From Halapricum salinum (GTDB taxonomy: Archaea; Halobacteriota; Halobacteria; Halobacteriales; Haloarculaceae): 64,000 nucleotides of DNA. The translations under genes were made by a program, and so were the position numbers. The notes beneath the pieces are model-generated. The model was given only the letters and a program-made list of their open reading frames with translations, ran no database searches and was not told where the DNA came from. Positions 30,821 to 49,134 of the stretch are shown in pieces. How positions within the stretch are numbered: the first letter of the stretch is position 1; each line of letters opens with the position of its first letter. The stretch lies in NCBI RefSeq assembly GCF_004799665.1, contig NZ_CP031310.1, positions 302,887-366,886 of the forward strand. Direction: 5' to 3'.

Positions 30821-33355
30821 ATGGCAATCGATGACACAGACGGGGGGGAGAGTGAGGAGACTCGCTCTAGCAGTGACCGGCTCTTACAGAACGTCAACGA
30901 AGAGGCCGGTGCCGGGTACAGCTGGTCGGACTTCCGGCGTGAGCACCACGACGGTGGTCGGTTCGACCGCAGCAAGTATCTGGGTTTCGACCCACAGCGA
31001 ACCGACGACTACCTCGAAGACGGTGCCAGTGCCGGGAAGACCCTCGATCAATACTGGCAATCGTTTCTGGATCTGGAGACGACGCCGGTGGTAAAGGGCA
31101 GCTACCGGCTCGAACACTTCAAGCGAGAGTACTACTACGAAGAGGGCGACCGGGCACCGCGTGACGGCGACGGGAACAAGATCCCGTTCGAACTGGAAGA
31201 GTACCTCGGCTTCGGCGAGGACGAAGTCGAAGGGGAACTCAGTCTCGCCGAGGACCGCGCGAGCACGCTCAAACATCTCGTCGACGAGCGGACCGTCGAC
31301 GTCAACGAGGAATTAGACGAGGACGCCTTCTTCTCGACGGTCGAGGGGCACACGACCGTCGTCAATCGCTACGACCTGGAGAAGACCGTCCCCCTGGAGA
31401 AGAAAAAGCACTTCTACGAGGTCGAACGCTACTGGGTGAACAAGCCATACGCGTGTGTCATCATCTTCCACTCGCGCAAGGAGAACGAACGCAAGTACTA
31501 CGTCGTCGAGCCGTATCTCAACGAGATAGAGGTCAATCTACAGGACTTTCTGGCGCGCAAGCTTCGAACGGCGATCAAGTACTCCGACGACGACATCGTC
31601 GTCGACGGCTCCGAGGCCGATCGCGCTGACGTCATCCAGCGCGAGACCGAACAACTCCTCCAGCGCTACGACCTCTACAGCGAGCCAGTCAAAAACGGCA
31701 GCGGCACCGTCGGGACGATCAAGGGACTGCTCGGGATGGGCAGCGACGTCGAGGAGGTATCGGGTGAACTCGAAGGAATTCTGACTCGGCCCGAGCCGGC
31801 GGTTTTGGCCGAAGACTCCAAGACGCTCACCGAGTACCAGGTCGAGAAACTGCTGTACAAACTCAAGCGAAACTTCATCGGCTATCAGAAGATCGACCCG
31901 ATCAAACACGACATCAACGTGGAGGACGTCTCCTGTGACGGGTACAACTCCCGGGTGTTCGTCTATCACACCGAGTACGAGAACATCATCTCGAACGTCG
32001 AACACGGCAAGTCCACGCTGGACGACTTCGTTGTCAAACTCGCCCAGCGCTCGGGCAAAGGGATCTCCAAACGGCAACCGCAGGTGGACGCGACCTTACC
32101 GGACGGGTCGCGCGCCCAGCTTACCCTGGGTGACGAAGTCTCGGACCACGGGACCAACTACACGATCCGTCAGTTCAAGGACGTCCCGTTCACGCCGATC
32201 GACCTCATCAACTGGAACACGTTCAGCCTGGACCAGATGGCGTTCCTCTGGCTCTGTATCGAGAACCACAAGAGCCTGATCTTCGCCGGCGGGACGGCCT
32301 CGGGGAAGACCACCAGCCTGAACGCGGTCTCGCTGTTCATTCCCTCGAATTCGAAGATTGTCTCCATCGAGGACACCCGCGAGGTCGAACTACCCCAGCG
32401 AAACTGGGTCGCCAGCGTCACCCGTCCCTCCTTCGGTGAGGACGACAAGGGTGACGTCGACGAGTTCGATCTGCTGGAGGCCGCACTGCGACAACGCCCC
32501 GACTACATCGTGATGGGTGAGATTCGTGGTGAAGAGGGTCGAACCCTGTTCCAGGTCATGTCGACGGGTCACACCACGTACACGACGTTCCACGCCGACT
32601 CCGTGGGCGAGGTCATCAAGCGGTTCACGACCGACCCGATCAACGTCTCGAAGACGCTGTTCACGGCGCTGGACCTGGTGAGCATTCAGACACAGACCCG
32701 GACCGACGGCAAGAAGGTCCGCCGGAGCAAGTCACTGACCGAGATCAACGAGTACACGCCCGAGAACGACGAGATCAACGTCCGGGACGTCTACCAGTGG
32801 CAAGCCGACACCGACCAGTTCATCCAGATGGGCAATTCCAACACCCTCGAAGAGATCAAGTTCGACCGCGGGTGGGGTCAGGACCGCCTGGACGAGGAGT
32901 TGTTCAAACGCAAGGTCGTCCTCGCGTATCTCATCGAGAACGGACTCAACACCTACACCCAGGTCGCCGCGACGATCCAGGCGTTCATCAACGATCCCGA
33001 TACGATCATGACGCTGATCGCCAACGACCAGCTCGAACGCAGTCTCGAGGACCTCCGGGAGATGGAGTCCGTCGAAATCGAAGTCGACCAGGAGAAAGAG
33101 GAACTCGTCCCGCGGCCCGATCCGGGCGAGGACATGCGCGAGGAGGCCCAGGAGATCCTGGACAACGCCGACCCGCTGTTCAGGCAGTTGCGGGCGTCCG
33201 AGACGTCGGACATCGTCAGTGCCCTCACAGGTATCGAGTCCGAGGAAGACATCACACCCGTGCCCGCAGACGAAGAGGAAGACAGCCAGGAAGAGACCGT
33301 CGAGTTCGGTCAGTTCGTGCCGAAAGCCGGTGCGGAGGCGACTGACGACGGATGA
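30821..33355 (+). CDS. Type II/IV secretion ATPase (PilB/TadA type) for an archaeal pilus
   Basis: 844 residues. A long acidic N-terminal domain (about 1-330) precedes the ATPase core. Walker A is GGTASGKTTSLNAV near 489, aspartate/arginine box SIEDTREVELPQRNW near 515, Walker B DYIVMGEIRGEEGRTL near 560 and histidine box GHTTYTTFHADS near 580. The C-terminal part (about 700-844) is acidic with DADPLF-like helices. It powers polymerisation of pilin subunits by the partner at 33352-35523, which it overlaps by four bases. In Haloferax the corresponding pairs are named PilB and PilC; no number is given here because copies vary. Confidence 0.9.
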   Translation: MAIDDTDGGESEETRSSSDRLLQNVNEEAGAGYSWSDFRREHHDGGRFDRSKYLGFDPQRTDDYLEDGASAGKTLDQYWQSFLDLETTPVVKGSYRLEHFKREYYYEEGDRAPRDGDGNKIPFELEEYLGFGEDEVEGELSLAEDRASTLKHLVDERTVDVNEELDEDAFFSTVEGHTTVVNRYDLEKTVPLEKKKHFYEVERYWVNKPYACVIIFHSRKENERKYYVVEPYLNEIEVNLQDFLARKLRTAIKYSDDDIVVDGSEADRADVIQRETEQLLQRYDLYSEPVKNGSGTVGTIKGLLGMGSDVEEVSGELEGILTRPEPAVLAEDSKTLTEYQVEKLLYKLKRNFIGYQKIDPIKHDINVEDVSCDGYNSRVFVYHTEYENIISNVEHGKSTLDDFVVKLAQRSGKGISKRQPQVDATLPDGSRAQLTLGDEVSDHGTNYTIRQFKDVPFTPIDLINWNTFSLDQMAFLWLCIENHKSLIFAGGTASGKTTSLNAVSLFIPSNSKIVSIEDTREVELPQRNWVASVTRPSFGEDDKGDVDEFDLLEAALRQRPDYIVMGEIRGEEGRTLFQVMSTGHTTYTTFHADSVGEVIKRFTTDPINVSKTLFTALDLVSIQTQTRTDGKKVRRSKSLTEINEYTPENDEINVRDVYQWQADTDQFIQMGNSNTLEEIKFDRGWGQDRLDEELFKRKVVLAYLIENGLNTYTQVAATIQAFINDPDTIMTLIANDQLERSLEDLREMESVEIEVDQEKEELVPRPDPGEDMREEAQEILDNADPLFRQLRASETSDIVSALTGIESEEDITPVPADEEEDSQEETVEFGQFVPKAGAEATDDG

Positions 33356-35523
33356 GCCTCGACACACGGTCGCCGGAGGCCAGCCTCGGTGGCACTGGCA
33401 CGCTCGGGGACACGTTCTATCCACTCTTCCAGTGGCTGTTCGACGACGAGGGCGACTTCGTCAGTAGCGTCGAGACGAAACTCGCCGAAGCGCGGATGGC
33501 CGACAACGTCGAGATGTTCCTCTCGCGTGCGCTCGCGGTCGGGACCATCGCAGGCGTCGCGCTGTGGCTGGTCGGGACGCTGGTCGGGTACATGCTCGTC
33601 ACCGTGTTCCTCCCCGACGATTTCCTCATCCTCGGGATCGATTTCGGCCAGTACAACGCGCTGGTCAACGCCATCAAACTCCCGGTGATGATACTGGTCT
33701 CGGGGCTGTTCTTCGGCTCGATCGGCTTCGCGATCGGGTTCGGCTCGCTCGTGTCGATCCCGTACTTTCGATCGTCGGCACGCAAGCGCGAGATCAACGT
33801 CCTGCTGTCGGACTCGATCTCCTTTATGTACGCGCTGTCGGTCGGAGGTCTGAATCAGCTGGAGATCCTCCACGCGATGGGCAAAGCCGAGGACACCTAC
33901 GGCGAGGTCGCAAAGGAGTTCCAGTCGATCGTCCTCGAAACGGAATACTTCGACACGGACTACCGGACTGCGGTCCGCAACCAGGCGTTGCAGACCCCCA
34001 GCGACGAGCTGAGCCAGTTCCTGACGGACATGCTGTCGATCATCAACTCCGGCGGGGACATGACGAGTTTCCTCGAAGACCAGAAGAACAAGCACATGCG
34101 GACGGCCAAACAGGAACAGCAGAAACTGCTGGAGACCCTGGAGCTGTTCGGCGAGATGTACATGACGCTGTCGCTGTTCCCACTCCTGCTCATCATCATC
34201 CTCGTGATCATGAACATGATGGGCAACGCCAGTTCGACGCTGATGTACGGGACGGTCTACGGGCTGATCCCACTGGTCAGCGTCGGCTTCCTGGTGCTGG
34301 TCTCGACGGTCACGCAGGACACGATCGGTGACGGTTACCTCCAGCCCGATCGGGACGAAGACGACCGCGTCGAGAGCAGCGGCGGCATCTTCCAGCTTGG
34401 GCTGATCGAGAGTTTCACCGGCGAGTACAGCGTCTTCGATCGGATCAAGAACAAGGAGGGGTCCTATCAGGTGATGGAGATCGTCCGTGAGCCACACATC
34501 TTCTTCCGCGACAACCCGACGTACGTACTCGCGGTGACCGTCCCGCTCTCGTTGCTGGCGCTGGGGATCTCGCTGTTCGCAGGCTGGGCGCCGATGCCGT
34601 TGCCGTTCGATAGCTTCATCTGGGGAGAGAAAGGCTTCGCGAAAAACCCCGTCCAGGCGACGTTCTTCTGGGTGTACGTCCCGATGTACATCAACTTCAT
34701 TCCGCTGGCGATCTTCTACGAGTGGAACCAGCGCTACCGCAAGTCCGTCATCGGCAACCTCTCTGAGAACCTTCGGAAGTTGGCCAGCGCCAACGACACC
34801 GGGATGACGCTGCTGGAGTCGATCCAGGTCGTCGCCGACACTTCCTCGGGCCGACTCGCAGAGGAGCTGGAGACGATCCACGCCAAGACCAACTACGGGA
34901 CGAGTCTCAAACACAGCTTGCGGGAGTTCAACAACAAGTTCCACGTCCCGCGGATGGCCCGGACTGTGAAGCTCATCAGTGAGGCCCAGGAAGCCTCCAG
35001 TCAGATCCAGGACGTGCTCTCGACGGCCGCCCAGTCGAGCGAGAACCAGGACGACATCGATCGGGAGCGCAAGTCCCGCACGCGGATGCAGGTCGTGATC
35101 ATCATCATGACCTACCTGACGCTACTGGGGGTCATCGCATTGCTGAAATTGCAGTTCCTCGATACGATGCAGGGACTCGGAGAAGCGACCCAGGGCGCCT
35201 CCGGTGATGCACCGTCTGGAGCGAGCTTCAGCGGCGATCTGGGGCCGCTGTCGATGCTGTTCTTCCACGCGGTGACCCTGCAGGCGATCCTGTCGTCGTT
35301 CATCGCCGGATACATCCGGGACGTCAATCTCATCTCGGGCGTGAAGTTCGCAGTGATCCTCTCGACAATCGCGCTCGTGGTCTGGATCGCCGTCGGTGGC
35401 GGAAACACCGGCGGCGGCGGCAACGAAACCGAGGCAGCGCTGCTGTTGCTGCTGGTCGGCCCAACCGCCGGAACGCGAGCGCGGATCAGAGAACGTCTGG
35501 TCCAGTGGAGGAATCGGGTCTAG
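33352..35523 (+). CDS. Type II secretion F family membrane platform (PilC/TadC type)
   Basis: 723 residues with about nine membrane helices and two GspF/TadC cytoplasmic domains (about 140-270: ARKREINVLLSDSISFMYAL, NQLEILHAMGKAEDTYGEVA; and about 450-570: YRKSVIGNLSENLRKLASAN, TGMTLLESIQVVADTSSGRL). The TM segments include LFPLLLIIILVIMNMMGN, and FFHAVTLQAILSSFIAGYI near the end. It forms the inner-membrane base on which the ATPase acts. Its stop is two bases before the first pilin-like gene. Confidence 0.9.
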   Translation: MSLDTRSPEASLGGTGTLGDTFYPLFQWLFDDEGDFVSSVETKLAEARMADNVEMFLSRALAVGTIAGVALWLVGTLVGYMLVTVFLPDDFLILGIDFGQYNALVNAIKLPVMILVSGLFFGSIGFAIGFGSLVSIPYFRSSARKREINVLLSDSISFMYALSVGGLNQLEILHAMGKAEDTYGEVAKEFQSIVLETEYFDTDYRTAVRNQALQTPSDELSQFLTDMLSIINSGGDMTSFLEDQKNKHMRTAKQEQQKLLETLELFGEMYMTLSLFPLLLIIILVIMNMMGNASSTLMYGTVYGLIPLVSVGFLVLVSTVTQDTIGDGYLQPDRDEDDRVESSGGIFQLGLIESFTGEYSVFDRIKNKEGSYQVMEIVREPHIFFRDNPTYVLAVTVPLSLLALGISLFAGWAPMPLPFDSFIWGEKGFAKNPVQATFFWVYVPMYINFIPLAIFYEWNQRYRKSVIGNLSENLRKLASANDTGMTLLESIQVVADTSSGRLAEELETIHAKTNYGTSLKHSLREFNNKFHVPRMARTVKLISEAQEASSQIQDVLSTAAQSSENQDDIDRERKSRTRMQVVIIIMTYLTLLGVIALLKLQFLDTMQGLGEATQGASGDAPSGASFSGDLGPLSMLFFHAVTLQAILSSFIAGYIRDVNLISGVKFAVILSTIALVVWIAVGGGNTGGGGNETEAALLLLLVGPTAGTRARIRERLVQWRNRV

Positions 35524-35525
35524 CT

Positions 35526-35984
35526 ATGCGATGGGTGGGTGATACCCGGGGACAGACACTGCAGGATTTCGCCGTCGGGGTCGGGATCTTCCTGATCGCG
35601 TTCATCTTCGTGCTGTCGCTGTTCCCGGGGCTGTTGACGCCGTTTCAATCCTCGGCCAGCGGGGCAGAACGGGCCCAGGCCGAGCAGGTGTCGACGCAGA
35701 TGTTGAACACGCTCTCGGATGGGTCGGCACCGAACCACCTCAATACGGCAGAATTGACGACCGTGCTCGGCGGATCGGAGGCCGACTTGCTGGATCGCTA
35801 CGGCTTACCGATCGCGGCCAACATCAACGTCACCGTCGAGACGCTCGACGGGACCAGAAACATCTATACCACGAACAACGAGGTCGGCGACCGTGAAGTA
35901 GCGACGTCTGCTCGCATCGTGACGCTGGACGGCGACAACCCAGATTGTGAGCCGGCGTGCCGACTCGTGGTACGGGTGTGGTAA
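35526..35984 (+). CDS. Pilin-like protein A, cassette 1
   Basis: 152 residues. Class III leader with MRWVGDTRG then QTLQDFAVGVGIFLIAFIFV; the RG-Q junction fits prepilin-peptidase cleavage. The soluble part includes SASGAERAQAEQVSTQMLNT and ends ACRLVVRVW. Equivalent of A' at 44212-44766 (DDRG-QTTLDFTIGVTIFVVV, ending FLVVQLW). It is probably a minor pilin or assembly factor. The first of the downstream block after the platform gene, two bases away. DUF7287-like in size and pattern. Confidence 0.82.
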   Translation: MRWVGDTRGQTLQDFAVGVGIFLIAFIFVLSLFPGLLTPFQSSASGAERAQAEQVSTQMLNTLSDGSAPNHLNTAELTTVLGGSEADLLDRYGLPIAANINVTVETLDGTRNIYTTNNEVGDREVATSARIVTLDGDNPDCEPACRLVVRVW

Positions 35985-35985
35985 C

Positions 35986-36636
35986 ATGCGCGGCCAATTA
36001 CACTCCGAAGACCGTGGGCAAGCGTTCACGCTGGAGGGGATCATCAGCGCAGTCATCGTGCTGACGGCGCTTTTGTACGCCCTCCAGGCGGTCGTCATCA
36101 CGCCGACGACTGGGGGCACTGTCGATCAGGGCGTCCGGACGGAACTCCAGCAGCAGGCCGACGACATCCTCGCCATCGCGGGCGGGGACGACGACGGGCA
36201 GTTGTCGGAGCTGACCCGCAACTGGTCACAGAGCCGACGGACGTTCTACGGCGCTGTCAACCCGAACATCGGATTCGGCAATCAGCGCCTTCCCGGGGAG
36301 TTGGGAACGCTCCTGAACGAGACGTTCGACTCTCGGGATCGCCAGTACAACGTCGAGATGCGCTACCTCCCGAAAGATCCCACCGATGGGATTCAACGGA
36401 CGGTCATCGCCTCACGCGGAACGCCGTCGGATAGCTCTGTGATGGCCTCCTACCGGATCACGCTGTACGACAACATGACGCTGACCTCGCCGACAGCTGG
36501 ATCGGCCGAGTTGTGGCAGTACGACACGTCTCCGACGACGAACCCGATCGACGGGAAGAGCGGCTACTATCCCGTCCCGAACGCCGTCTCGGGACCGGTG
36601 TATAACGTCGTCGAAATCAGGGTGATCGTCTGGTGA
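35986..36636 (+). CDS. Pilin-like protein B, cassette 1
   Basis: 216 residues. MRGQLHSEDRG-QAFTLEGIISAVIVLTALLYALQ is the leader plus assembly helix, with a Gly-Gln junction. The soluble part contains QQQADDILAIAGGDDDGQLS, RRTFYGAVNPN, and ends VEIRVIVW. B' at 44760-45341 has the same layout (NRG-QAHTLEAVVAALLLLSSLV, ending RVEVVVWRI). DUF7288-like. The start is one base after the A stop. Secreted to the outer membrane face after cleavage. Confidence 0.82.
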   Translation: MRGQLHSEDRGQAFTLEGIISAVIVLTALLYALQAVVITPTTGGTVDQGVRTELQQQADDILAIAGGDDDGQLSELTRNWSQSRRTFYGAVNPNIGFGNQRLPGELGTLLNETFDSRDRQYNVEMRYLPKDPTDGIQRTVIASRGTPSDSSVMASYRITLYDNMTLTSPTAGSAELWQYDTSPTTNPIDGKSGYYPVPNAVSGPVYNVVEIRVIVW

Positions 36637-37664
36637 TCGAACGACTCGAACCCGATGACGGAGCGGCGCTATCCGACCGGCGGGGACAGTTGTTGCTCGT
36701 CGGGGCCGTCGCACTGGCGATCATCATCCTCGGGCTGTCCATCGTCGTCAACACCGTCCTGTTCACCGAGAACGTCGGGACCGGTGAGGCCCGGGTCGAA
36801 GCACCCGCGATCGAGGAGTTCTCCTTCGAGGCCCAAAAGAGCGCTCGCTCGCTGATGCTTCGGGTGAACGGTGCCGATCGAACGGATGCGATTGCGGACG
36901 TGAACGCGAGTATCGGCGCGCAACTCGCCAATTATAGCGACGCTGTTGCGCGATCGTATGCCGCCAGCGGGACTGTCTTCGTCGACGTCTCGTACAACGA
37001 CACGCTCAGAAACGGGACGCGGATCGTCCAGGGGAGTGACCGAAAGTTCACCTACCCGGCCGCACACGACAGCGGCCTGAGTTCGAACCGCAGTGACTGG
37101 TCGCCTGTGGCAGATCCAACGGAGGTCGGCTGGATGGTCTTCAACGTCGACCTGCGGAACACGAGTGGCCAGCAGACGACCGTCGAACTGACCAACGACA
37201 CCGGCGCGACGCTCACGTATCGGTTCAACCGATCGAACGGTGGAAACGGAGCAGACCTTCGGATCGAAGCCACGAACTCGGCCACGGGTGGGACCGAATC
37301 GGCCTCCTGTGAGTCGACGGGTGGTCGCGTCCTCCTCGACATGCGCCGCGGGGAGGCGTTCCTGAGCGAGTGTACCTTCCCCGAGATCGGATGGATCGAA
37401 CCGCCATATTCAGTCACGATTACCAAGGGTCACCGTCTGGCCGGTCAGTACGACATCATCGTCAACGAGAGCTGGCACACCGCGGAATCCAGCACGATCG
37501 ACGCCGAAGACGGCGGGACTGACCGTCCGTATCCACACTGTCCCGACGGCGTCGAAGAGCCCTGTCTCTCACCGGTCGTCTGGCAGGGGCAGGTCGATCT
37601 GACCTACCGATCTGCAGACGTGAATTTCGCCACCGTGCGGAACATCACCGTCTACGACCCCTGA
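36633..37664 (+). CDS. Pilin-like protein C, cassette 1
   Basis: 343 residues, GTG start overlapping the B stop by four bases. Leader SDRRG-QLLLVGAVALAIIILGLSIVV, with VNTVLFTENVGTGEARVEA after the helix. C' at 45329-46294 matches that region (ERA-QIMLVAAFVLAVTFIA, LNSVIYTENLATRGEDA). A long extracellular part with cysteines at ASCESTGG, SECTFPE, YPHCPDG and EPCLSP, probably disulfide-bonded. DUF7261-like. A gap of 248 bases with a promoter follows. Confidence 0.82.
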   Translation: MIERLEPDDGAALSDRRGQLLLVGAVALAIIILGLSIVVNTVLFTENVGTGEARVEAPAIEEFSFEAQKSARSLMLRVNGADRTDAIADVNASIGAQLANYSDAVARSYAASGTVFVDVSYNDTLRNGTRIVQGSDRKFTYPAAHDSGLSSNRSDWSPVADPTEVGWMVFNVDLRNTSGQQTTVELTNDTGATLTYRFNRSNGGNGADLRIEATNSATGGTESASCESTGGRVLLDMRRGEAFLSECTFPEIGWIEPPYSVTITKGHRLAGQYDIIVNESWHTAESSTIDAEDGGTDRPYPHCPDGVEEPCLSPVVWQGQVDLTYRSADVNFATVRNITVYDP

Positions 37665-37912: not shown

Positions 37913-40561
37913 ATGATCGAGGGAGACGTAGAACAGCGTGGGGATCGAACAGCATTCGGGGACGACGAGCGGGCGCTCTCGACGCCGGTGACGCACGCGT
38001 TGACGATCGCGATCACCGGCCTGTTGATGATCACGCTCGTCAGCACGGCGAGTGGCTTTCTGACCGACCAACAGGAGTTCGCCGCCCGTGACGAAGTCGA
38101 GACGATCGGCAATCGACTGGCCGACGACGTCCAGGAAGTCATCGGGCTGAGCAACGAGAGCGGCTCGGCGACCGTCTACGTCAACCAACCCGATTCCATC
38201 ATCGGGAGCCAGTACCACGTCACCTACGAGGAAGACGACGACTGTGACACGAGAGCACACACGTCGGATCAGTGTCTCGTCGTCTCGGTCGTCGACATGG
38301 ACGTCTCACAGACGGTCCCGGTCACCGTCCCGGGCGACGTCGAGGTGGACGTCAGCCGGGCGAACCCGTCGACGTTCAAGTTGACCGCCGAAAACAGCGG
38401 TGCAGGGAGCGGAAACGACGCCGTCGTTCCGATGTCCCGAACGATGCGGGTCGGTGTCGGGCGGAACGTCGACAGCAACGCCTACAGCGAAGTCGTCGAT
38501 CCGAATCCCCAACCGCCGGCCATCAACAATATCGAATACGCACCCGGGTATCCCGTGGTCGACACCCCGATCACGTTCACCGCAGATGCCGAAGATCCCG
38601 ACGGGACCATCATCGACTACGAGTGGTCGATCAACGACTCGGTCGTCGATTCGGGAAGCGATCTATCCTCGTACACGACGACACTCCCACCCGGCCGCCA
38701 CAGCGTGACGGTGCGCGTCGAAGACGACGAAGGGCTGACAGCGAATCAAACCACGACCTTCAGAGTCTCCGGCGTCTCGTACAACAACGACCTCGAGAAA
38801 GTAGCGGGTGGCTCGGAAGGTCGCTGTTCCGGTGTCAACGCAGAGTTGAGCCTGACGAACCAGCTGAGCGAGGAAGTCAAGCTGACGGACATCTACGTCG
38901 ATCCACCGGAGAGCGTCAACTTCCTCGAATACGGTGACGAAGACGACCACGAAGTCGCGTTCGACCTCGACGACGACGGGTCTTACGACGAATTCTACGA
39001 GTTCGGGCGGATCGACCTCAGGGACAAACCCGACGGGACGTTCCTCAGCCTCCCCGGAGACTCGCCGCTGGAGATCGACCCGGGACAGGACGTGGGCGTC
39101 AGTATCTGTCGGTTCAAAGGCGGTGGCAACGTCGAAGAAACGAACTTCAGCTTCCGGTACTGGCACGACGGCGTGACGAATCGGACGAGCATCACGCCGA
39201 GTAACCAACTGATATCCGACTACTCGGTCGACGCCGCCAGTGGCGACGTGGTCGTCACCATCGACTCGAACCGACAGCTCGGATCGCTCGACGCCGAAAT
39301 ATCGAACGCCTCGAAGAGCGCTGACCTCTCGCTCTCGGACTTCACCGAAACCAGTTCCGGTGGCACCTACCAGTACGAGGCGGCGCTCACCGTCTCCTCG
39401 GGGACCCACACCGTCGAACTGACGGGCGCCGAAGACACCGACGGGAGGCCAGCCGTGACGCTGCCGCGGTCCGGGACGGCCACCATCCTCGGCGGCGGAG
39501 CCTACGCCTGGCAGACCGAGAGCGACTGGGACGCGCATCAGTCGTCGGTTGGCGTCGTCCACGACGACTACGGCGACTACACAGCCGACAGTGTCGCGCT
39601 CGGACGACCGCCGGGCAGTGTCGACTCGTCGCTGGTGAGTTACTGGCCGTTCGACGGCGGCTCCGTCGCGGACGTCGTCGGAGACAACGACGGTATCATC
39701 CACGGCTCGCCGACGGTCACCAGTGAGGGGATCAGTGGGACCAGCGCGCTGCGGTTCGACGGAGAGGGGGACTACGTCGAGGTGCCAGCCGACAGTTCAC
39801 TCGAGATGTCCGACGACGATCAGGTGACGGTCTCGATGTGGGTGAACAAACACCGGAAAGGCGGATGGACGACCCGAACACTCTTCGAAAAGGACTCTTC
39901 GTACCGGATGGCGCTAGACAGTGGCGACGACTTCATGTTCAGCATTTACGAAAGGTACAGTTGGTGGGGTGACTGGGAAGACTCACCCAAGATGGACATA
40001 TACGAGTCGACGAACAAATACTATCACGTCGTCGGTGTGTTCGACGGCGCAGACGTCAAAGCGTTCGTCGACGGTACATCACTCGGGGCAAACGGGGCTC
40101 CCGACGAGATCGCAGACGCGAGCGGAAGCGGGATTGGTATCGGGGGGAGTCTCGACGAACCCGATCAAGATACGAACGCGAACATCGACGACGTCCGGAT
40201 CTACGACACCGCGCTGAACGCGAATCAGGTGAAGCGACTGGCGAACGTGACCAGAGGATCGATCGTGACCGACAAACGGACGGGGTCGACGATCAGCAAA
40301 CACAGCGACGTCAAAGTCAACTACGAGGCCGACATCGACGCCGGTGAGACGATCACGCTGACGGTCTACGCCGAACCGGATAGCGGCTCGGTGAAGTCGG
40401 ACTCGGTCACGCTCGAATCCAGCGACAGCGGCTCCGGAACTGTCTCGCTCACCGGGATCAACAAGGACGCGGACACGTTCTGGGTCCGTGCGGAGCTGAA
40501 CTCGCCGTCGAGCAAGCGCAGCCCCGAACTGCACGGCGTCGTCCTCCAGGAGGGATCGTAA
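37913..40561 (+). CDS. Pilin-like protein D with PKD and LamG-like adhesive domains
   Basis: 882 residues. Leader and helix: DDERA-LSTPVTHALTIAITGLLMITL (about 18-50), then FLTDQQEFAARDEVETIGNR, equal in place to D' (FVTEQRETSIRTEMEVLGEQ). About 200-287 is a PKD/Ig-like domain (ITFTADAEDPDGTIIDYEWS...HSVTVRVEDDEGL). About 570-775 is a concanavalin/LamG-like domain (YWPFDGGSVADVVGDNDGII, ALRFDGEGDYVEVPADSSLE, DDVRIYDTALNANQVKRL). D' has 156 residues and neither domain. This is probably a tip adhesin or receptor-binding minor pilin. The next gene starts directly after its stop. Confidence 0.85.
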   Translation: MIEGDVEQRGDRTAFGDDERALSTPVTHALTIAITGLLMITLVSTASGFLTDQQEFAARDEVETIGNRLADDVQEVIGLSNESGSATVYVNQPDSIIGSQYHVTYEEDDDCDTRAHTSDQCLVVSVVDMDVSQTVPVTVPGDVEVDVSRANPSTFKLTAENSGAGSGNDAVVPMSRTMRVGVGRNVDSNAYSEVVDPNPQPPAINNIEYAPGYPVVDTPITFTADAEDPDGTIIDYEWSINDSVVDSGSDLSSYTTTLPPGRHSVTVRVEDDEGLTANQTTTFRVSGVSYNNDLEKVAGGSEGRCSGVNAELSLTNQLSEEVKLTDIYVDPPESVNFLEYGDEDDHEVAFDLDDDGSYDEFYEFGRIDLRDKPDGTFLSLPGDSPLEIDPGQDVGVSICRFKGGGNVEETNFSFRYWHDGVTNRTSITPSNQLISDYSVDAASGDVVVTIDSNRQLGSLDAEISNASKSADLSLSDFTETSSGGTYQYEAALTVSSGTHTVELTGAEDTDGRPAVTLPRSGTATILGGGAYAWQTESDWDAHQSSVGVVHDDYGDYTADSVALGRPPGSVDSSLVSYWPFDGGSVADVVGDNDGIIHGSPTVTSEGISGTSALRFDGEGDYVEVPADSSLEMSDDDQVTVSMWVNKHRKGGWTTRTLFEKDSSYRMALDSGDDFMFSIYERYSWWGDWEDSPKMDIYESTNKYYHVVGVFDGADVKAFVDGTSLGANGAPDEIADASGSGIGIGGSLDEPDQDTNANIDDVRIYDTALNANQVKRLANVTRGSIVTDKRTGSTISKHSDVKVNYEADIDAGETITLTVYAEPDSGSVKSDSVTLESSDSGSGTVSLTGINKDADTFWVRAELNSPSSKRSPELHGVVLQEGS

Positions 40562-41359
40562 GTGTCCGAACGGAGACGAGGCCGAGCGGTTAGCGACGTC
40601 GTCGCGTTCACGCTGATGTTCGGGATCATCCTGACGTCCGTCGGGCTGGTCGCGACGTTCGGGCTGGCCGAATTGAACTCGTTCAACGAGCACCAGAAAA
40701 TCGAGAACGCGGATCGAACGTTCGAGTTGATCGCGCGGTCGTTCGACGAACTCGAGGAGAGTCAGGCGACCGTCCGAACCGAGGCGATCGAACTCGGTGG
40801 CAGTTCGATCACCGTCGAAGAGTCGTCGTCGCTGACGGTGACGGTCAGAGACACAGACACGGGAACGACACACACCGAGTCGTTCCCACTCAACACCCTG
40901 CAGTACGAAGTCGATAACCGACTGATCGGCTACGAGAATGGCGCGACCTACCGCGTCCGGACGAACGCCGACGGCGGCATCATCAACCGCGATCCGGGAC
41001 TCGTCTGTTCCGACGGGCAAGCCGTCCTCTCGCTGGTGACAATCAGGGCCGAAGAAGATCGGTATATCAGCGGTAGCGGGACGCTGCGAATCACCGGCCG
41101 TCTGAACGACAGTTCGTTGTTGTATCCGGTGTCGGACACCGACGTCGGCAATGCATCGGCGGCCGATCAGGTCGATCTGCAGTTCACGTTCAGTGGCGAG
41201 AGTCGCGCTCGCGAATGGGCCAATCACTTCGACCGTGCGCCGGGCGACTGGTCTGTCACGAGTCAGACCGACACGTCGGTGACGGTCCGGTGTGGCGCCA
41301 GCGAGGATCTGGACCACGTCTACGTCCGCCGATCGATCATCGAAGTCAGCTACTCATGA
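40562..41359 (+). CDS. Pilin-like protein E, cassette 1
   Basis: 265 residues, GTG start directly after the D stop. Leader GRA-VSDVVAFTLMFGIILTSVGL followed by LAELNSFNEHQKIENADRTF. E' at 46759-47532 has the same form (DRG-LSEVLGFALVFALVVSTVI, RDAEELNNAERAFDVLADNM). DUF7289-like. The soluble part is beta-rich with cysteines in GLVCSDG and TVRCGASED, and ends VRRSIIEVSYS. Minor pilin or assembly factor. Confidence 0.82.
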   Translation: MSERRRGRAVSDVVAFTLMFGIILTSVGLVATFGLAELNSFNEHQKIENADRTFELIARSFDELEESQATVRTEAIELGGSSITVEESSSLTVTVRDTDTGTTHTESFPLNTLQYEVDNRLIGYENGATYRVRTNADGGIINRDPGLVCSDGQAVLSLVTIRAEEDRYISGSGTLRITGRLNDSSLLYPVSDTDVGNASAADQVDLQFTFSGESRAREWANHFDRAPGDWSVTSQTDTSVTVRCGASEDLDHVYVRRSIIEVSYS

Positions 41360-41435
41360 CCCGGAACCCAACCGTCATCGGCAGTCGTCAGCCAGCTTCG
41401 AGAGAGCGGACGCACACCTGTTTAGGAGTAGATCT

Positions 41436-43751
41436 ATGAGAGCAACGCGTGGAGACAACGAAATGACAGAACGGGGGCAGTGGCGCATCGACGAACGAGG
41501 GGCCTCAGAGGTGATCGGGGCGGTGTTGATCATCGGGATGGTCATCACGGGGTCGTTGATCGTCGTCTATTTCGGTGCGGACACGATCGAGCGGACCGAA
41601 CAGGGCCAGAGCGACGAGTCGGCCCAGATCGGTATCCAGGAGATCGACTCCCGGCTGAGCACGCTCGCGTCGTCGAGTGCAGCGAAGACGGTCAACTTCG
41701 AGATCGGCTCGAACATCGAACGGAACGCGTACCTGACCGAGGACGAAGGGTATCTGAGCATCACAGTAGACGAGCGAAGCGCGTGTTCGGTTCGAGAGCC
41801 ACTCGATTCGATCCGGTTCGAACGTGACGACGGAGAGATCATCGCCTACGAGGCCGGTGGGACGTGGGTCAAATCCCGGAACAACGGGACCGTTCTCAGG
41901 ACGGCCCCGGACGTCTCCTATCGCAACGGGACGATCGACGTCTCGCTGTTGAACATGACCGGACAGGTCCAAGGCGGGGTCAACCAGGCCGTCGCGGACG
42001 TGAACACCTCGCGCATCGATACGAAAAACGCCGTAGACACGCTCATGCAGGGTGAGTGTGTCCGGCCGGACAACGTGACGATGCGGATCCAGAGCGACTT
42101 CTACCGGGCGTGGACGGACTACCTCGAAGAGGAAACCGGCCTGCAGAATGGGACGCCCGCCGACCCGGGCGACAGTTATCTCACCGTCGACGAGTCAGAA
42201 CAGATGGTCGAAGTCTATCTCAATCAGAGTGCGCTCCCCCGACGGACCGACGACGCGCGGAACAACGTCGTCAACGTCACGGGCTCGGACTACATGAAGG
42301 ACGTCTCGATCACTGACGACGGCATTATGATCACCAAAGGTGTCGACAACACCTATACGGTCTACAGCGAGCCGCTCTCCGAGCGGCCCGAACTCGGAAC
42401 TGTCAGACAGATTTCAGAGGCAGTAAACGTGACCCGGCCGCCGCTCGACGTTGTGTTCGTCGTCGACGAGTCGGGGTCGATGGCACAGTCCGCTGGTAGT
42501 CGATTCAAGTACGAAGCCGTTCGCGAGTCCATGCAGAACTTCACGACGTATCTCGATAGCGACATGGACCGCGTGGCTCTTGCAGGGTACAACCAATACC
42601 ACGAGGAAGGGTCGGGAGGGACATACGAGCTCCACGGAGAAGAACGTGAAATCAACGAAGGGACCAACAGAGGTGTGATCTACAGAACGAACGGCCGGAT
42701 GTTGACGAGTGACTTCGCGGAATTCAACAGTTCGACGGTCTACGAGACCGAAGCGATCGGTGGGACGTACTCTGCCGGAGGGATGACGAAAGCGGCGACG
42801 ATGCTCGATCTCCGGAGTAACGAGAGTCGGAACACGATTGTCGTGATGCTGACTGACGGCAAAAATACCGGCGACGACTACTGGTACATCGGCGACGACG
42901 AGTATGATGGAAGTGACGGCGCGTCGATCGAAATCGCTGACCGCATGAATCGGACAGGGACGGTCACGTACACGATCGGCTTTTCTGACAACGAAGACGA
43001 CGTCGACGACGGCTTCCTCAAGAACACCGCTACCGAAGGCGGCGGCGAGTACTACTTCGCGGAGGACTCCGAAGAACTCCAAGAAGTATTCTCCGCCATC
43101 GCTGAGGACGTCTCCAGCACCAACCAGGTCGGCCACTACGGCCTGACGACGAACCTCTCGCACAACGGGACGGTGAATCCTCCCCAGATCACCGGTGACA
43201 CGAGCCGAATCGCGACCGTGACCGAGGACGGCGAGGAGTGGATGAATATCAACGATCCGACGTCCCCGTCGACGTTCAGTCACGCGTTCGCAGTCACCGG
43301 TGGCGACATGGTGAACTTCACGGCGAATAGATTCGATTGTGACAGATGGGTCGGGACCGGACAGTCGAAAGTCATCAACGGCTCCTCAGTTCCGGTCACC
43401 CGCTGTGCGGAGATGAATACGACCGATCCGACGGTCGTCGAGGGCGACAACGTCACCGTCTTCACCAAAGGCGACTCCGCGACGTTCAACGACTTCCTCG
43501 ACAACACGACCGCCGCGGAGTGGCAAACGAACCTCACCGAGGCGCTGGACAACTACGGCGGCCTCTACAACGAAACCTCCGAGAAGCTAACCCTCCAGAG
43601 CAATCAGGTGCTGGTCCTCTATGACTTCCCCGACGGCAAGAACACCGACAACCGGATGTTGATGCTCTACAGCATCGGCCTCTCCGAAGAAGAGGCCCGA
43701 CCGACTGGAATCATCGACTTCGACGTCGACAACGTCGAAATATCGAGCTGA
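41436..43751 (+). CDS. Pilin-like protein F with von Willebrand A domain
   Basis: 771 residues from the ATG at 41436, where TTAGGAG lies in good position; the ATG at 41463 is also possible. Leader and helix DERG-ASEVIGAVLIIGMVITGSLI, then a DUF7289-like region (RSACSVREPLDSIRFERDDG...). From about 335 to 540 a vWA domain: VVFVVDESGSMAQSAGSRFK gives the MIDAS DxSxS, with TYSAGGMTKAATML and VVMLTDGKNTGD the other MIDAS loops. The C-terminal part has NHGT-type beta repeats. vWA pilins usually bind ligands or surfaces, so this is an adhesion candidate. It closes cassette 1. Confidence 0.83.
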   Translation: MRATRGDNEMTERGQWRIDERGASEVIGAVLIIGMVITGSLIVVYFGADTIERTEQGQSDESAQIGIQEIDSRLSTLASSSAAKTVNFEIGSNIERNAYLTEDEGYLSITVDERSACSVREPLDSIRFERDDGEIIAYEAGGTWVKSRNNGTVLRTAPDVSYRNGTIDVSLLNMTGQVQGGVNQAVADVNTSRIDTKNAVDTLMQGECVRPDNVTMRIQSDFYRAWTDYLEEETGLQNGTPADPGDSYLTVDESEQMVEVYLNQSALPRRTDDARNNVVNVTGSDYMKDVSITDDGIMITKGVDNTYTVYSEPLSERPELGTVRQISEAVNVTRPPLDVVFVVDESGSMAQSAGSRFKYEAVRESMQNFTTYLDSDMDRVALAGYNQYHEEGSGGTYELHGEEREINEGTNRGVIYRTNGRMLTSDFAEFNSSTVYETEAIGGTYSAGGMTKAATMLDLRSNESRNTIVVMLTDGKNTGDDYWYIGDDEYDGSDGASIEIADRMNRTGTVTYTIGFSDNEDDVDDGFLKNTATEGGGEYYFAEDSEELQEVFSAIAEDVSSTNQVGHYGLTTNLSHNGTVNPPQITGDTSRIATVTEDGEEWMNINDPTSPSTFSHAFAVTGGDMVNFTANRFDCDRWVGTGQSKVINGSSVPVTRCAEMNTTDPTVVEGDNVTVFTKGDSATFNDFLDNTTAAEWQTNLTEALDNYGGLYNETSEKLTLQSNQVLVLYDFPDGKNTDNRMLMLYSIGLSEEEARPTGIIDFDVDNVEISS

Positions 43752-43853: not shown

Positions 43854-43925
43854 TGGACTCGCCGGGATTTGAACCCGGGGCCTCTCCCATGCCAAGGGAG
43901 TGATCTACCACTGATCTACGAGCCC
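43854..43925 (-). tRNA. tRNA-Ala (anticodon GGC)
   Basis: 72 bases on the minus strand, 43925 down to 43854. Acceptor GGGCTCG pairs with CGAGTCC, with A as discriminator. Anticodon arm CTCCC-TTGGCAT-GGGAG places GGC at positions 34-36, and the T arm is CCGGG-TTCAAAT-CCCGG. No CCA is encoded. No intron. It lies between pilin cassettes 1 and 2. Confidence 0.96.
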
Positions 43926-44211: not shown

Positions 44212-44766
44212 ATGCGTAGAGACGACCGTGGACAAACGACACTCGATTTCACGATCGGCGTGACGATCTTCGTGGTCGTCCTCGCCGGTGTGTTTCTGTT
44301 CGTCCCGGGAACGCTCCAGCCCTTCGAAGAAGGTGGCCAGGAGAACATCGTCACCGCCAATCGAGTTGCCGATCAGCTGAGCGAGCACGTGCTCGCAGAG
44401 CCGACAGAGCCCTACGTGCTGGAGAACGGCTGTGTCGTCCCCTTCTTCGACGAATCGGAACCAGTCCCCGCAGAGTGTAACTACGAGGGCGGAACCCTTC
44501 AGGAGCGGGTTGGATACGGCGATTTCCAGTTTGCGAACGTCTCGATCCGGGGATCGGTTGCCGGGAGTTCCGAGGTCGAACAGTTGTGTTACGAAAGTGC
44601 GAATCCCGCCGGGTCGCGGCTCGAATCCGGGAGCGACTGTGGTGAGTCAGACGACACCCGGTTGGCCGTGGGTTCGGACCTCGAGGGTGTCGAGTCGTCG
44701 GTGACCGCCCGCCGAGTAGTCGAACTCGACGACCAGACGGTCTTTCTGGTGGTGCAACTATGGTGA
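44212..44766 (+). CDS. Pilin-like protein A', cassette 2
   Basis: 184 residues. Leader MRRDDRG-QTTLDFTIGVTIFVVVLAGV, then FLFVPGTLQPFEEGGQENIV, which parallels LSLFPGLLTPFQSSASGAER in A. Cysteines in LENGCVVPFF, AECNYEG, EQLCYES and GSDCGES. Ends VFLVVQLW. First gene of cassette 2; overlaps B' by seven bases. Likely a minor pilin handled by the same motor, as no second ATPase is present. Confidence 0.82.
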   Translation: MRRDDRGQTTLDFTIGVTIFVVVLAGVFLFVPGTLQPFEEGGQENIVTANRVADQLSEHVLAEPTEPYVLENGCVVPFFDESEPVPAECNYEGGTLQERVGYGDFQFANVSIRGSVAGSSEVEQLCYESANPAGSRLESGSDCGESDDTRLAVGSDLEGVESSVTARRVVELDDQTVFLVVQLW

Positions 44767-45341
44767 ACCGAGGACAGGCCCACACGCTCGAGGCCGTCGT
44801 CGCAGCCCTGTTGTTGCTGTCGAGCCTCGTCTTCGCACTCCAGATCACGGCCGTGACACCGTTGTCTGCCAGTACGTCGAACCAGCACATCGAGAATCAG
44901 CAGCAGGCCAGCGCTGCGGGGATCCTGTCGATCGCCAGTCAGAACGGAGACCTGAAACGGTCGGTGTTGTACTGGAACGCGACCGGCCAGCGGTTCCACA
45001 ACGGGACGATCAACGGCTACTACACGGAGACGATGCCGACCGAGTTCGGCCGGTCGCTGGAGGAGGCGTTCGGGGATCGCGGGATCGCCTACAACGTCTA
45101 CGTCACCTACACCGAGCCGGACGGCGGCGTGGTCCGTGACGAGATGATATATCGGGGCGAGCCCAGCGACAACGCCGTGATGGCGAGTCGAACGCTCGTA
45201 TTGACCAACGAGAGCCGGCTCCGGACCGAAGAGCTGGGACTCGGGCCGCAGATCGACTCGGATAACTTCTACGCGCCAGACATCGAGGACGGCGGGTACC
45301 ACAACACGATCCGCGTGGAGGTGGTCGTGTGGCGGATCTGA
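44760..45341 (+). CDS. Pilin-like protein B', cassette 2
   Basis: 193 residues. Leader MVNRG-QAHTLEAVVAALLLLSSLV and ALQITAVTPLSASTSNQ after it, matching B (ALQAVVITPTTGGTVDQ). Ends RVEVVVWRI. It also shares SDNAVMASRTLVLTNESRL with SDSSVMASYRITLYDNMTL of B. No cysteines. Overlaps C' by 13 bases. Confidence 0.82.
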   Translation: MVNRGQAHTLEAVVAALLLLSSLVFALQITAVTPLSASTSNQHIENQQQASAAGILSIASQNGDLKRSVLYWNATGQRFHNGTINGYYTETMPTEFGRSLEEAFGDRGIAYNVYVTYTEPDGGVVRDEMIYRGEPSDNAVMASRTLVLTNESRLRTEELGLGPQIDSDNFYAPDIEDGGYHNTIRVEVVVWRI

Positions 45342-46294
45342 ACGGCCGTCGGACCAGCCGCGGCGGCGAGCGAGCCCAGATCATGCTCGTCGCGGCGTTC
45401 GTGCTGGCGGTGACGTTCATCGCGCTCGCCGTGATGTTGAACTCGGTGATCTACACCGAGAATCTGGCGACACGTGGCGAGGACGCCCACGGCTCGGAAG
45501 CGATCGCCTACCGAGCAGACATGGCCGCCGGAACCGAACGGCTCATCGAACACGTCAACGAGAACCAGACCGGAGAGTCCTACGACGACCACGTCGCGAA
45601 TCTCACCACGTCGATCGCCGCGATGGACAATGGCACAGCACCGATCGTCGCGACCGGCGGCACCCGGACCAAGGTTTCGGTGATGAGCGTAACGCGTGGA
45701 ACGCGTATCGGACAGTTCAACACCGCACGGAACTTCACGGACGTCGGTGCAACCACCGACTGGGAACTGGCGAACTCCATCGAGGGGACGCGCGCGTTCA
45801 GAATCAACATCACAGATTCGAGTCAACTGGTCGAGGAGGACCTCATCTCGTTCCTGGGTGGGGGTATCGATCCATTCACCGTCCGTGTCGACGACGGCAC
45901 CGACGACTGGGCAGTCCGGATCTACGAAGACGACACGACGGACAACGTCATCGTCGACGTCGAGGGGGCCGGAGAGTGTGAAGTCGGTGAGAACCCGGAG
46001 ATCGACCTCACTGCCGGGACCATCAACGGCGAGCCCTGTGGGCCGCTATCGTTCGGAGACGGTGTCTCGACGCCGTACTCGCTGCGCTACGAGCAGGCCG
46101 ATCAGATCCAGGGCAACTTCTCGCTGGTCGTCGATTCGACCAGTTTCACCAGTAGCCACTACAGTGCTGACGAGGACACGCCCTTTGCGGACGATCAGGC
46201 CATCTACGCGGCGACGATCCGCGTCCTGCACGAGTCGGCAGATCACGTCTACGCGACCGACGCAGAGGCGATCCCGGGTGAGAACGATGCGTAA
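45329..46294 (+). CDS. Pilin-like protein C', cassette 2
   Basis: 321 residues, GTG start. Leader RGGERA-QIMLVAAFVLAVTFIALAV then MLNSVIYTENLATRGEDAHG, the C-type signature VNTVLFTENV/LNSVIYTENL. The soluble part has two cysteines (GAGECEVGE, GEPCGPLSF). N-glycosylation sequons such as NTT, NGT and NFT occur. Ends IRVLHESADHVYATDAEAIP, similar to the end of C. Overlaps D' by eight bases. Confidence 0.82.
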   Translation: MADLNGRRTSRGGERAQIMLVAAFVLAVTFIALAVMLNSVIYTENLATRGEDAHGSEAIAYRADMAAGTERLIEHVNENQTGESYDDHVANLTTSIAAMDNGTAPIVATGGTRTKVSVMSVTRGTRIGQFNTARNFTDVGATTDWELANSIEGTRAFRINITDSSQLVEEDLISFLGGGIDPFTVRVDDGTDDWAVRIYEDDTTDNVIVDVEGAGECEVGENPEIDLTAGTINGEPCGPLSFGDGVSTPYSLRYEQADQIQGNFSLVVDSTSFTSSHYSADEDTPFADDQAIYAATIRVLHESADHVYATDAEAIPGENDA

Positions 46295-46757
46295 GAAAGG
46301 ACAGTTCGACGGCGACGACCGCGGCGTCTCGATGACGGTCAGCTACATCCTCGGGCTGTCGATCGCCTTCCTGCTGGTGATCGGGCTGTTCCTCACGGCC
46401 GGCGATTTCGTCACCGAGCAGCGCGAGACGAGCATCCGCACGGAGATGGAAGTCCTGGGCGAACAGATCGCCACCGACATCACGCTGGCCGACCGAATGG
46501 CACAAACGACGACCGACAACGAAACCGTCGTCGTCAGGCGGTCACTCCCCTCCAGGGTCAGCGGGACGGGATATACGATCAGCGTGACTGGCGGCGACGA
46601 TCCCTATCTCGTGTTGACCTCACAGGACCCGGAGATAACGGTCGAGGCCGAGTTCTCCAACCAGACCGACGTCGAGATGAGCCGACTCAACGGCGGGTCG
46701 ATACTGGTGAACTACACCGACAGCGACACGCTGGAAGTCCAGCGGAGTGATCGATAG
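46287..46757 (+). CDS. Pilin-like protein D', cassette 2 (short form)
   Basis: 156 residues. Leader DDRG-VSMTVSYILGLSIAFLLVIG then FVTEQRETSIRTEMEVLGEQIATDI, the D signature. Lacks the PKD and LamG domains of D at 37913-40561 and ends GGSILVNYTDSDTLEVQRSD, so it is the likely ancestral size of the family (DUF7266-like). One base separates it from E'. Confidence 0.82.
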   Translation: MRKKGQFDGDDRGVSMTVSYILGLSIAFLLVIGLFLTAGDFVTEQRETSIRTEMEVLGEQIATDITLADRMAQTTTDNETVVVRRSLPSRVSGTGYTISVTGGDDPYLVLTSQDPEITVEAEFSNQTDVEMSRLNGGSILVNYTDSDTLEVQRSDR

Positions 46758-46758
46758 G

Positions 46759-47562: not shown

Positions 47563-49134
47563 TCAGGCGTCCAGGCTGACCTCGATTTCGTTTTTGGTGA
47601 TGTGCAGGAACGTCACGAACCGACCGGCCGTCGACTCCTGATAGAGCAGCGTCCCCTGCGAGGGATCTTGCTGGATCGGCGTGCTCCCGCCCGGCCCGGT
47701 CTTGGCGTGTAGTCTGATGTTCGGTCCAGCCTCGCTCAGGTAGTGGTCGACGATGTCCCCGAGCATACAGCCCGTACTGGTATCACCCTGCGTGTAAGTC
47801 CCGGGCTCGCAACTGCTGATCGAACCGTGGCCGTCGAGCGTGACCTCGTTTTTCATCGACCAGTCGTTGATGTTCGAGCCGAAACACCACTGGTTGCCGT
47901 CACAGACACTGCCGCCACTACCGCCGCCCGTGCTGACGCCGCTGTCACTGTAGGCCATCTCGGTGGCGCTGTCGGTACTGGTGAGGTCGAGAGTGAGCTG
48001 CGGCTCGCCGTCGTTACAGCCCCACGTGACCGCGCTGGAACTGGCCGGAATCGTCGTCTCCCAGAGCTCGTACTCCTCGTGGCTGCTGCCGTTGTAGTAA
48101 TACTGGGCGACGTAGACGTCGGTTGTGTCGCCGCAGTCGAAATTCCCGGAGATATCCGGCGAGATGTGTAATTCCCACTGGGCTCCGGACTCGTTTTCGT
48201 GCCAGTAGGAGAACTCGTTCGTCCCGCCACCGTTGCCGTAGACGAGCGAAGTGTCGAACTGATCAAGCGGGTGATCCTCGCCGATTCCCGAGGCTTCGAC
48301 GTAGTCTTCGGTCCCGAACGTCGGCAGTTCGAACTCGCCGGGCGGCCCCGAGATGGTCGAGAGCGTCAGCGTCACTTTCTCACCGTCTCTGGTGACCTCA
48401 CCCGTCGTCCGCTGTCTGAAGTACGATTCCCACCCGTCGGCGTACTCGCTCTTGACAGTGACGTTGACGGTCCCGGTGCGAATGGGGTTGGTGTAGTTGC
48501 GGTAGTCAGTCGAGGCTGTCTCGTCGTACGGTGCACCGACGCCGTCGTCCTCGTCGGTCGTCCGATTCGGATAGACGAGCCGTGCCTGCTGGAGCGGGCG
48601 CACGTTCATATCGACGCTCCCGCTCGCCGAACCCTCCCCGTTGACCCGGATCGCCGGCAGCGTCAACGTCGCTCCGCGGTAGTGAAACTCGGGTGGGGAG
48701 ACCATCCGCGCGTCGCCGTTGCCCTCGACCTGCCAGACGCCACCGCCCTGATAGGCGATGATCCCCGAGTCACTCTCGTAGACGACCTTTCCGAGCGACT
48801 CGTTGAATATCACTTCGCTGTGTGGTGGATTCTCCGCCGTGTAGTTGTGATGTGTCACGCGCAGCCAGCCGTCGCCCTCGTGGACGGAGACTGCCCCACC
48901 GCCTTGCCCGAGCGAGACGGTCTGTCCGCCCGAGTCGCCGAGGGCGACCATCGCTGCACGAGAGTCGAACAGCGTCATCGAGTTCTCCGCGCGCTGGTAC
49001 TCGATACTCGACTGAGTGTCGAGGATCCCGCTCCCGCCGATAGCGACGGTCAATCCCGCACCCGCGATGACGAGTGCGAAGATGAGGACGAACCCGATCG
49101 TCTCCGACTGGGCCCGCGAGAACGTGTCGGTCAT
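47563..49134 (-). CDS. Pilin-like protein of DUF7289 type, opposite strand
   Basis: 523 residues. Leader TFSRA-QSETIGFVLIFALVIAGAG then DTQSSIEYQRAENSMTLFDS, as in the E/F group. The first 230 residues match the E/F domain (VVYESDSGIIAYQGGGVWQV), and the rest is a cysteine-bearing beta domain (FDCGDTTDVYV, WGCNDGEPQL, SVCDGNQWCFG, SSCEPGTYTQGD). It is convergent with E' (stops 31 bases apart) and stands in the place where an F' gene would be expected. It has its own promoter region at 49135-49350. Confidence 0.8.
   Translation of the reverse strand: MTDTFSRAQSETIGFVLIFALVIAGAGLTVAIGGSGILDTQSSIEYQRAENSMTLFDSRAAMVALGDSGGQTVSLGQGGGAVSVHEGDGWLRVTHHNYTAENPPHSEVIFNESLGKVVYESDSGIIAYQGGGVWQVEGNGDARMVSPPEFHYRGATLTLPAIRVNGEGSASGSVDMNVRPLQQARLVYPNRTTDEDDGVGAPYDETASTDYRNYTNPIRTGTVNVTVKSEYADGWESYFRQRTTGEVTRDGEKVTLTLSTISGPPGEFELPTFGTEDYVEASGIGEDHPLDQFDTSLVYGNGGGTNEFSYWHENESGAQWELHISPDISGNFDCGDTTDVYVAQYYYNGSSHEEYELWETTIPASSSAVTWGCNDGEPQLTLDLTSTDSATEMAYSDSGVSTGGGSGGSVCDGNQWCFGSNINDWSMKNEVTLDGHGSISSCEPGTYTQGDTSTGCMLGDIVDHYLSEAGPNIRLHAKTGPGGSTPIQQDPSQGTLLYQESTAGRFVTFLHITKNEIEVSLDA

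Follow-up and report, generated by a model that had tools for sequence, protein, structure and literature searches.

The window analysed in this study, a stretch of 64,000 nucleotides of the haloarchaeon Halapricum salinum (contig NZ_CP031310.1, positions 302,887 to 366,886; genome of 3.45 Mb), encodes a modular pilin-like protein, here called F, next to a cassette of five further pilin-like genes, A to E. F combines a pilin-like N-terminus with a von Willebrand A (vWA) domain, in which an intact and invariant metal ion-dependent adhesion site (MIDAS) is embedded in variable loops, and with a C-terminal module. We suggest that F is a modular minor pilin situated at or near the tip of a pilus, that it binds a ligand in a Mg2+-dependent manner and that pilin D of the same cassette is its lectin-bearing partner; we assign this reading a probability of about 0.68. 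It is put forward because the two types of head known from PilB and PilC of Streptococcus sanguinis recur in F and D, here on unrelated archaeal pilin-like modules. The parts of F, with residues counted from the ATG at 41463, are:

41463..43751, + strand: F, a DUF7289-vWA modular pilin of 762 aa (open frame; Pfam DUF7289 and VWA; orthologues)
41463..41576, + strand: residues 1-38, a class III-type leader with cleavage predicted after G13, followed by the hydrophobic N-terminal helix (sequence; TIGR02537 match under the cut-off; R12 invariant in 22/22)
41496..42179, + strand: DUF7289 pilin-like module, residues 12-239, with invariant C108 and C199 (Pfam PF23960, 1.8e-14)
42447..43094, + strand: vWA domain, residues 329-544 (Pfam PF00092, 1.2e-11; structural matches)
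42465..42479, + strand: MIDAS motif 1, D335-x-S337-x-S339 (DESGS; from the sequence, invariant in 22/22)
42594..42761, + strand: hypervariable insert beside the MIDAS, residues 378-433 (mean pairwise identity 0.27; length 33-60)
42765..42767, + strand: MIDAS motif 2, T435 in GGTYSAGG (invariant in 22/22)
42855..42857, + strand: MIDAS motif 3, D465 in LTDGK (invariant in 22/22)
43119..43748, + strand: C-terminal beta-rich module without a Pfam name, residues 553-762, with invariant C626 and C648 (Pfam scan, AlphaFold2 model, alignment)

The metal site carries most of the argument. A first-pass annotation, prepared from the letters of this DNA, had described a complete vWA MIDAS in F, with DESGS, a threonine in the second loop and TDGK, and had asked whether its residues are conserved. 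All five residues are present, and D335, S337, S339, T435 and D465 are invariant in all 22 aligned orthologues, i.e., the full-length F proteins from haloarchaeal genomes for which the flanking DNA was fetched. This conservation is not a matter of chance, since the columns of the vWA domain have a mean majority share of 49% and only 14 of 228 are invariant. The strand bearing motif 1 has a mean pairwise identity of 0.71 and the remainder of the domain 0.40-0.42; the least conserved segments are those flanking the MIDAS, namely the insert at residues 378-433 and residues 466-490 (identity 0.25, length 12-45 across orthologues). A constant metal site within a variable rim is expected for ligand-binding vWA domains such as the integrin I domains. 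In some of the orthologue searches the MIDAS was itself part of the pattern or profile, which may favour intact sites; a Pfam scan of all 29 sixth pilins of other type, described below, found a vWA domain in none of them, which weighs against such a bias. The MIDAS residues also recur in a wider set of profile-found vWA proteins, which included fragments and unrelated vWA proteins. In the same-genus genome G004 the assembly is fragmented and the copy of F (C238, locus L010) is spread over two frames; this copy was excluded from the alignments, and the split might be an assembly error or mark a pseudogene.

The vWA domain, an added module of a kind not confined to pili, is supported by profiles and by the predicted structure. 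The PF00092 match reaches 45.6 bits against a gathering score of 23.8, and VWA and DUF7289 were both detected in nine of nine family members scanned. The AlphaFold2 model of F, built from nine sequences, is weak overall (mean predicted local distance difference test score, pLDDT, of 53.9), with values of 53-88 in blocks of ten residues for the vWA part, except for 28-35 in the variable insert; modelling residues 240-762 alone brought no gain (mean pLDDT 53.5), and the fold searches used the full-length model only. With this model Foldseek returned 155 PDB matches at E<=0.001, the best being SpaC and PitA, adhesins from the pilus tip of Gram-positive bacteria; RrgA follows at rank 9 and the D319A variant of S. 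sanguinis PilB at rank 31. VIA gave a Z of 19.6 to a Bacteroides vWA protein, with the fold covering residues 327-552, and a Z of 18.4 to S. sanguinis PilB (7b7p; root-mean-square deviation 2.5 over 195 aligned residues). The vWA fold anticipated in the first-pass annotation was thus recovered by structure prediction and both searches, and at the level of the model it matches solved vWA domains; phmmer against the PDB sequences gave no match at E 0.01. As the structural matches hardly extend into the C-terminal module, no fold is assigned to it. The N-terminal module appears in the model as a long helix followed by strands at low pLDDT, and DUF7289 has no function name in Pfam.

At the N-terminus, the frame of F is open on the + strand from 41292 to 43751. 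The start proposed initially, ATG 41436, would result in 771 aa and is possible, but orthologues align only from residue 9-17 of that frame, and the ATG at 41463 is therefore the better-fitting start. The class III leader noted before (ERG-ASEVIG) is seen in the sequence, which reads DERG followed by ASEVIGAVLIIGM, with cleavage predicted after G13; R12 is unchanged in all 22 orthologues and the hydrophobic stretch is retained in the alignment. F contains 22 N-x-S/T sequons compared with a mean of 9.1 and a maximum of 17 in 500 shuffles, an excess that is consistent with an exposed surface protein. The four cysteines invariant in the 22 orthologues, which probably pair as C108/C199 in the pilin part and as C626/C648 in the C-terminal part, are further signs of exposure.

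The genes surrounding F in the window are:

30821..33355, + strand: PilB3-like assembly ATPase (Pfam T2SSE 1.9e-32, PilB3_C)
33352..35523, + strand: PilC/TadC-like membrane platform protein (Pfam T2SSF 1.7e-25)
35505..35984, + strand: A, DUF7287 pilin-like (Pfam)
35947..36636, + strand: B, DUF7288 pilin-like (Pfam)
36633..37664, + strand: C, DUF7261 pilin-like (Pfam)
37913..40561, + strand: D, DUF7266 pilin with PKD and Laminin_G_3 (ConA-like lectin) (Pfam)
40562..41359, + strand: E, DUF7289 pilin-like, without an extra module (Pfam)
44212-47532, + strand: second pilin cassette, A2-E2, five genes in A-E order
47563..49134, - strand: G, a long DUF7289 and DUF7308 pilin convergent with the second cassette, the paralogous counterpart of F (Pfam; cassette survey)

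The linkage between F and the cassette is constant. In 22 of the 22 genomes the A-E set adjoins F, and genes for the assembly ATPase PilB and the platform protein PilC lie beside the cassette in 15. These 22 cassettes were selected for having F; seven further vWA-DUF7289 loci of a different build (L086-L092), around which the fetched DNA contains no A-E cassette, were not counted among them. A class-wide search detected full-length F in at least 17 of 292 genomes, a lower bound with at most three candidates scored per genome. A search of 196 genomes across the phylum gave many matches outside Halobacteria, and among the matches listed the vWA part is covered and little of the C-terminal module. 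A scan of viral contigs yielded 102 pattern matches, none of which was confirmed as a relative.

In 20 of the 22 cassettes F and E are convergent, but in the window both lie on one strand; in genome G019 F lies upstream of A, also on the same strand. A phase-variable inversion of F was considered for this reason and rejected, as among the 25 longest of 33 inverted repeats none has arms in both flanks of F. Since no flanking inverted repeat is listed and none of the five compared relatives clearly matches the spacer upstream of F, the orientation in the window probably reflects a rearrangement of this single gene in the lineage. A tRNA-Ala (GGC) gene at 43854-43925 on the - strand separates F from the second cassette, and a tRNA-Ala gene is also found just upstream of F in loci L081, L082 and L083. 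The genome G146 (L083) likewise holds a vWA and a DUF7308 cassette side by side. A Pilin_N (PilA-like) match at 8517-8750 on the + strand, one of 14 in the genome, is a candidate major pilin.

The second head is found on pilin D. In all 22 vWA cassettes D has DUF7266 and, past it, a PKD-bearing extension of 273-766 aa; in the other cassettes this extension measures 9-59 aa in all 87 in which D was found (one of 88 had none), so that the extension of D occurs only together with a vWA pilin. Beyond the PKD domain a ConA-like Laminin_G_3 domain is present in nine of the 22 D proteins (window, L035-L039, L074, L076, L093), a malectin domain in one (L040) and a ricin-B-type domain in another (L077). 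Three unrelated sugar-binding folds thus occupy one place in D, which suggests that those D proteins that have a head act as lectins. Even within the genus the head varies, being found in the window and in G001 and absent in G002 and G003. The D protein implied in the first-pass annotation is accordingly present in the window with DUF7266, PKD and Laminin_G_3, and the view of two adhesive modules in one cassette holds for the window (vWA in F, ConA-like in D), whereas across the vWA cassettes a named sugar-binding domain in D accompanies F in only 11 of 22.

Cassettes were surveyed through DUF7288, the family of pilin B, which is present in 138 of 145 haloarchaeal genomes searched. In total 110 distinct DUF7288 cassettes were compared. 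F is present in 22 of them, and the remaining 88 come from the window, from L083 and from 86 survey regions that were hand-picked from the listed DUF7288 places, with over-represented genera thinned and already-fetched places skipped. A long DUF7289 pilin accompanies 76 of the 110 cassettes, with a vWA domain in 22, DUF7308 in 25 and other modules in 29 (DUF7305 in 22 and CARDB in four of these by Pfam), these being class frequencies of the survey and not abundances. For 34 cassettes no long DUF7289 pilin was found, among them L111 with only 4.3 kb downstream. Two DUF7305 pilins (L112:8140-9549, L173:4961-7633) have additional matches to the models of pAdhesive_15, an ice-binding-like adhesive, or of Bactofilin, a hint that their heads may be beta-helical.

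In the DUF7288 tree the 22 vWA cassettes lie on one side of a branch with a Shimodaira-Hasegawa-like approximate likelihood ratio test (SH-aLRT) value of 95, requiring one change. As they form one clade, the pairing of vWA-bearing F with extended D is best explained by a single origin in this tree, and an interpretation of their co-occurrence as repeated functional coupling was rejected. A broader proposal, to which we give somewhat less than an even chance, is that haloarchaeal pilus cassettes hold a dedicated effector slot, i.e., a sixth DUF7289 pilin, usually convergent, whose C-terminal head (vWA, DUF7305, DUF7308 or CARDB) is exchanged between lineages, and that with a vWA head the DUF7266 pilin also becomes a carrier of exchangeable lectins, an archaeal convergence on the PilB/PilC tip of S. 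sanguinis.

From these observations we infer how F might be processed, incorporated and positioned, and how it might bind metal and ligand. The N-terminal DUF7289 part would be processed as a class III prepilin, and F would enter a type IV pilus made by the adjacent PilB/PilC machine together with the pilins A-E. The vWA head and the C-terminal module would be too bulky for the interior of the filament, placing F at or near its tip. There the MIDAS might hold a divalent metal, probably Mg2+, which is abundant in brine, with an acidic group of the ligand completing its coordination, and the hypervariable loops round the site would determine the ligand. D would be the partner of F as a second modular pilin, whose PKD stalk presents a carbohydrate-binding head of exchangeable type, and both together may give the pilus a two-headed tip binding proteins or glycans.

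Several results weigh against this proposal. The NCBIfam archaellin/pilin N-terminal model TIGR02537 scores the leader of F with 15.9 bits, below its 20-bit cut-off, and the fold of the pilin module is poorly predicted (pLDDT 22-62 by blocks for residues 1-200). The VIA list includes many non-adhesin vWA proteins, such as TFIIH subunits and ArnAB, within about 2 Z units, and as these score similarly, the fold of F alone says nothing on its function. In 11 of the 22 D proteins nothing named lies beyond the PKD domain (L033, L034, L075, L078-L085), and the pairing of D and F represents a single evolutionary event, with no repeated co-gain. Experimental work on any member of the F family was not found in the literature searched, most subscription papers and all preprints lying outside it. 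Finally, PilB/PilC genes were not found in the fetched stretch beside the cassette in seven of 22 cases, this stretch being short for the contigs L036 and L037 of metagenome-assembled genomes.

An alternative that we consider unlikely is that F mainly acts as a priming or mechanosensing component of the tip like PilY1, with binding of an outside ligand being secondary. PilY1 and minor pilins are described to prime the pilus, and the vWA domain of PilY1 is discussed in surface sensing (PMC7541494, PMC9210963); moreover, F always occurs in a cassette with five other pilin-like genes. However, variability peaks in the loops round the MIDAS, as expected of a binding face and not of an assembly surface, and paralogous cassettes with the same set of pilins lack a vWA domain altogether. 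The seven cassettes with no PilB/PilC genes found beside them, as well as the loci L086-L092 away from any A-E cassette, would fit an F that stays in the membrane with its class III-type N-terminus as a stand-alone surface adhesin without a pilus. This is clearly improbable, since all 22 genomes have F beside the A-E set and ATPases can act in trans, the H. salinum genome having five T2SSE-family matches of its own. Least probable is a TadG-like structural role, in which the vWA domain would anchor the pilus in the cell envelope or S-layer and not to an outside target, as nine orthologues have no Tad/TadG domain by Pfam, the MIDAS is intact with a variable rim, and an anchor does not need exchangeable lectins on D.

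The reading of F as a tip-exposed, Mg2+-dependent binder with D as its partner gains its shape from S. sanguinis. In PilB of this species the MIDAS of the vWA module is described to bind metal and to be required for both twitching and adhesion, and PilB was modelled at the tip (PMC8179133); the module of PilC is a lectin of the ConA-like type, and a tip complex of PilABC was modelled (PMC9934059). F, a predicted class III prepilin, shares with the prepilin PilB the C-terminal vWA domain and the complete MIDAS, and a ConA-like lectin pilin is encoded in the same locus (PMC8179133, PMC9934059). In contrast, F is archaeal, its pilin module is DUF7289 and an extra C-terminal module follows the vWA domain; the lectin of D varies and stands on a PKD stalk, and four other pilin-like genes are present. 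The bacterial pilin module (IPR012902) is absent among the Pfam matches of F at E 0.01. In our reading F works like PilB but is no member of the S. sanguinis PilB family, and the likeness of F and D to PilB and PilC is probably convergent.

Other systems resemble F less closely. PilY1/PilC of diderm type IVa pili is likewise a vWA protein associated with minor pilins of the tip (PMC8179133); unlike pilin-like F, PilY1 is no pilin and has a beta-propeller, and the C-terminal PilC/PilY1 beta-propeller has no Pfam match in F. TadG (Tad pili) and ArnB (Sulfolobus) are further vWA proteins that have a link to type IV filaments (PMC4858521), but TadG is a proposed anchor and ArnB a regulator of archaellum expression, and in the passages covered neither is described with a DUF7289 module and a lectin partner. 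The main text of the archaeal type IV pilus census treats vWA proteins only as ArnB-type regulators and TadG and not as pilins (PMC4858521). Closest in gene content are the paralogous haloarchaeal cassettes with DUF7305, DUF7308 or CARDB pilins, which share the A-E order and a long, mostly convergent DUF7289 pilin but differ in the C-terminal modules and have a D without extension. Surveys of modular pilins, as far as their accessible text extends, speak of bacteria (PMC8179133, PMC10191384), and within the literature searched no paper named any of six DUF families or dealt with pili and adhesion of Halapricum. Modular pilins as such are already known; the searches made found no publication on an archaeal cassette that combines a vWA-lectin pair with an exchangeable sixth pilin. 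The analysis offers testable roles for DUF7261, DUF7266, DUF7287, DUF7288, DUF7289, DUF7305 and DUF7308, and the archaeal cassettes with vWA and ConA-like lectin heads would suggest that the same modular build of adhesive pilus tips arose in both domains of life, that is, twice.
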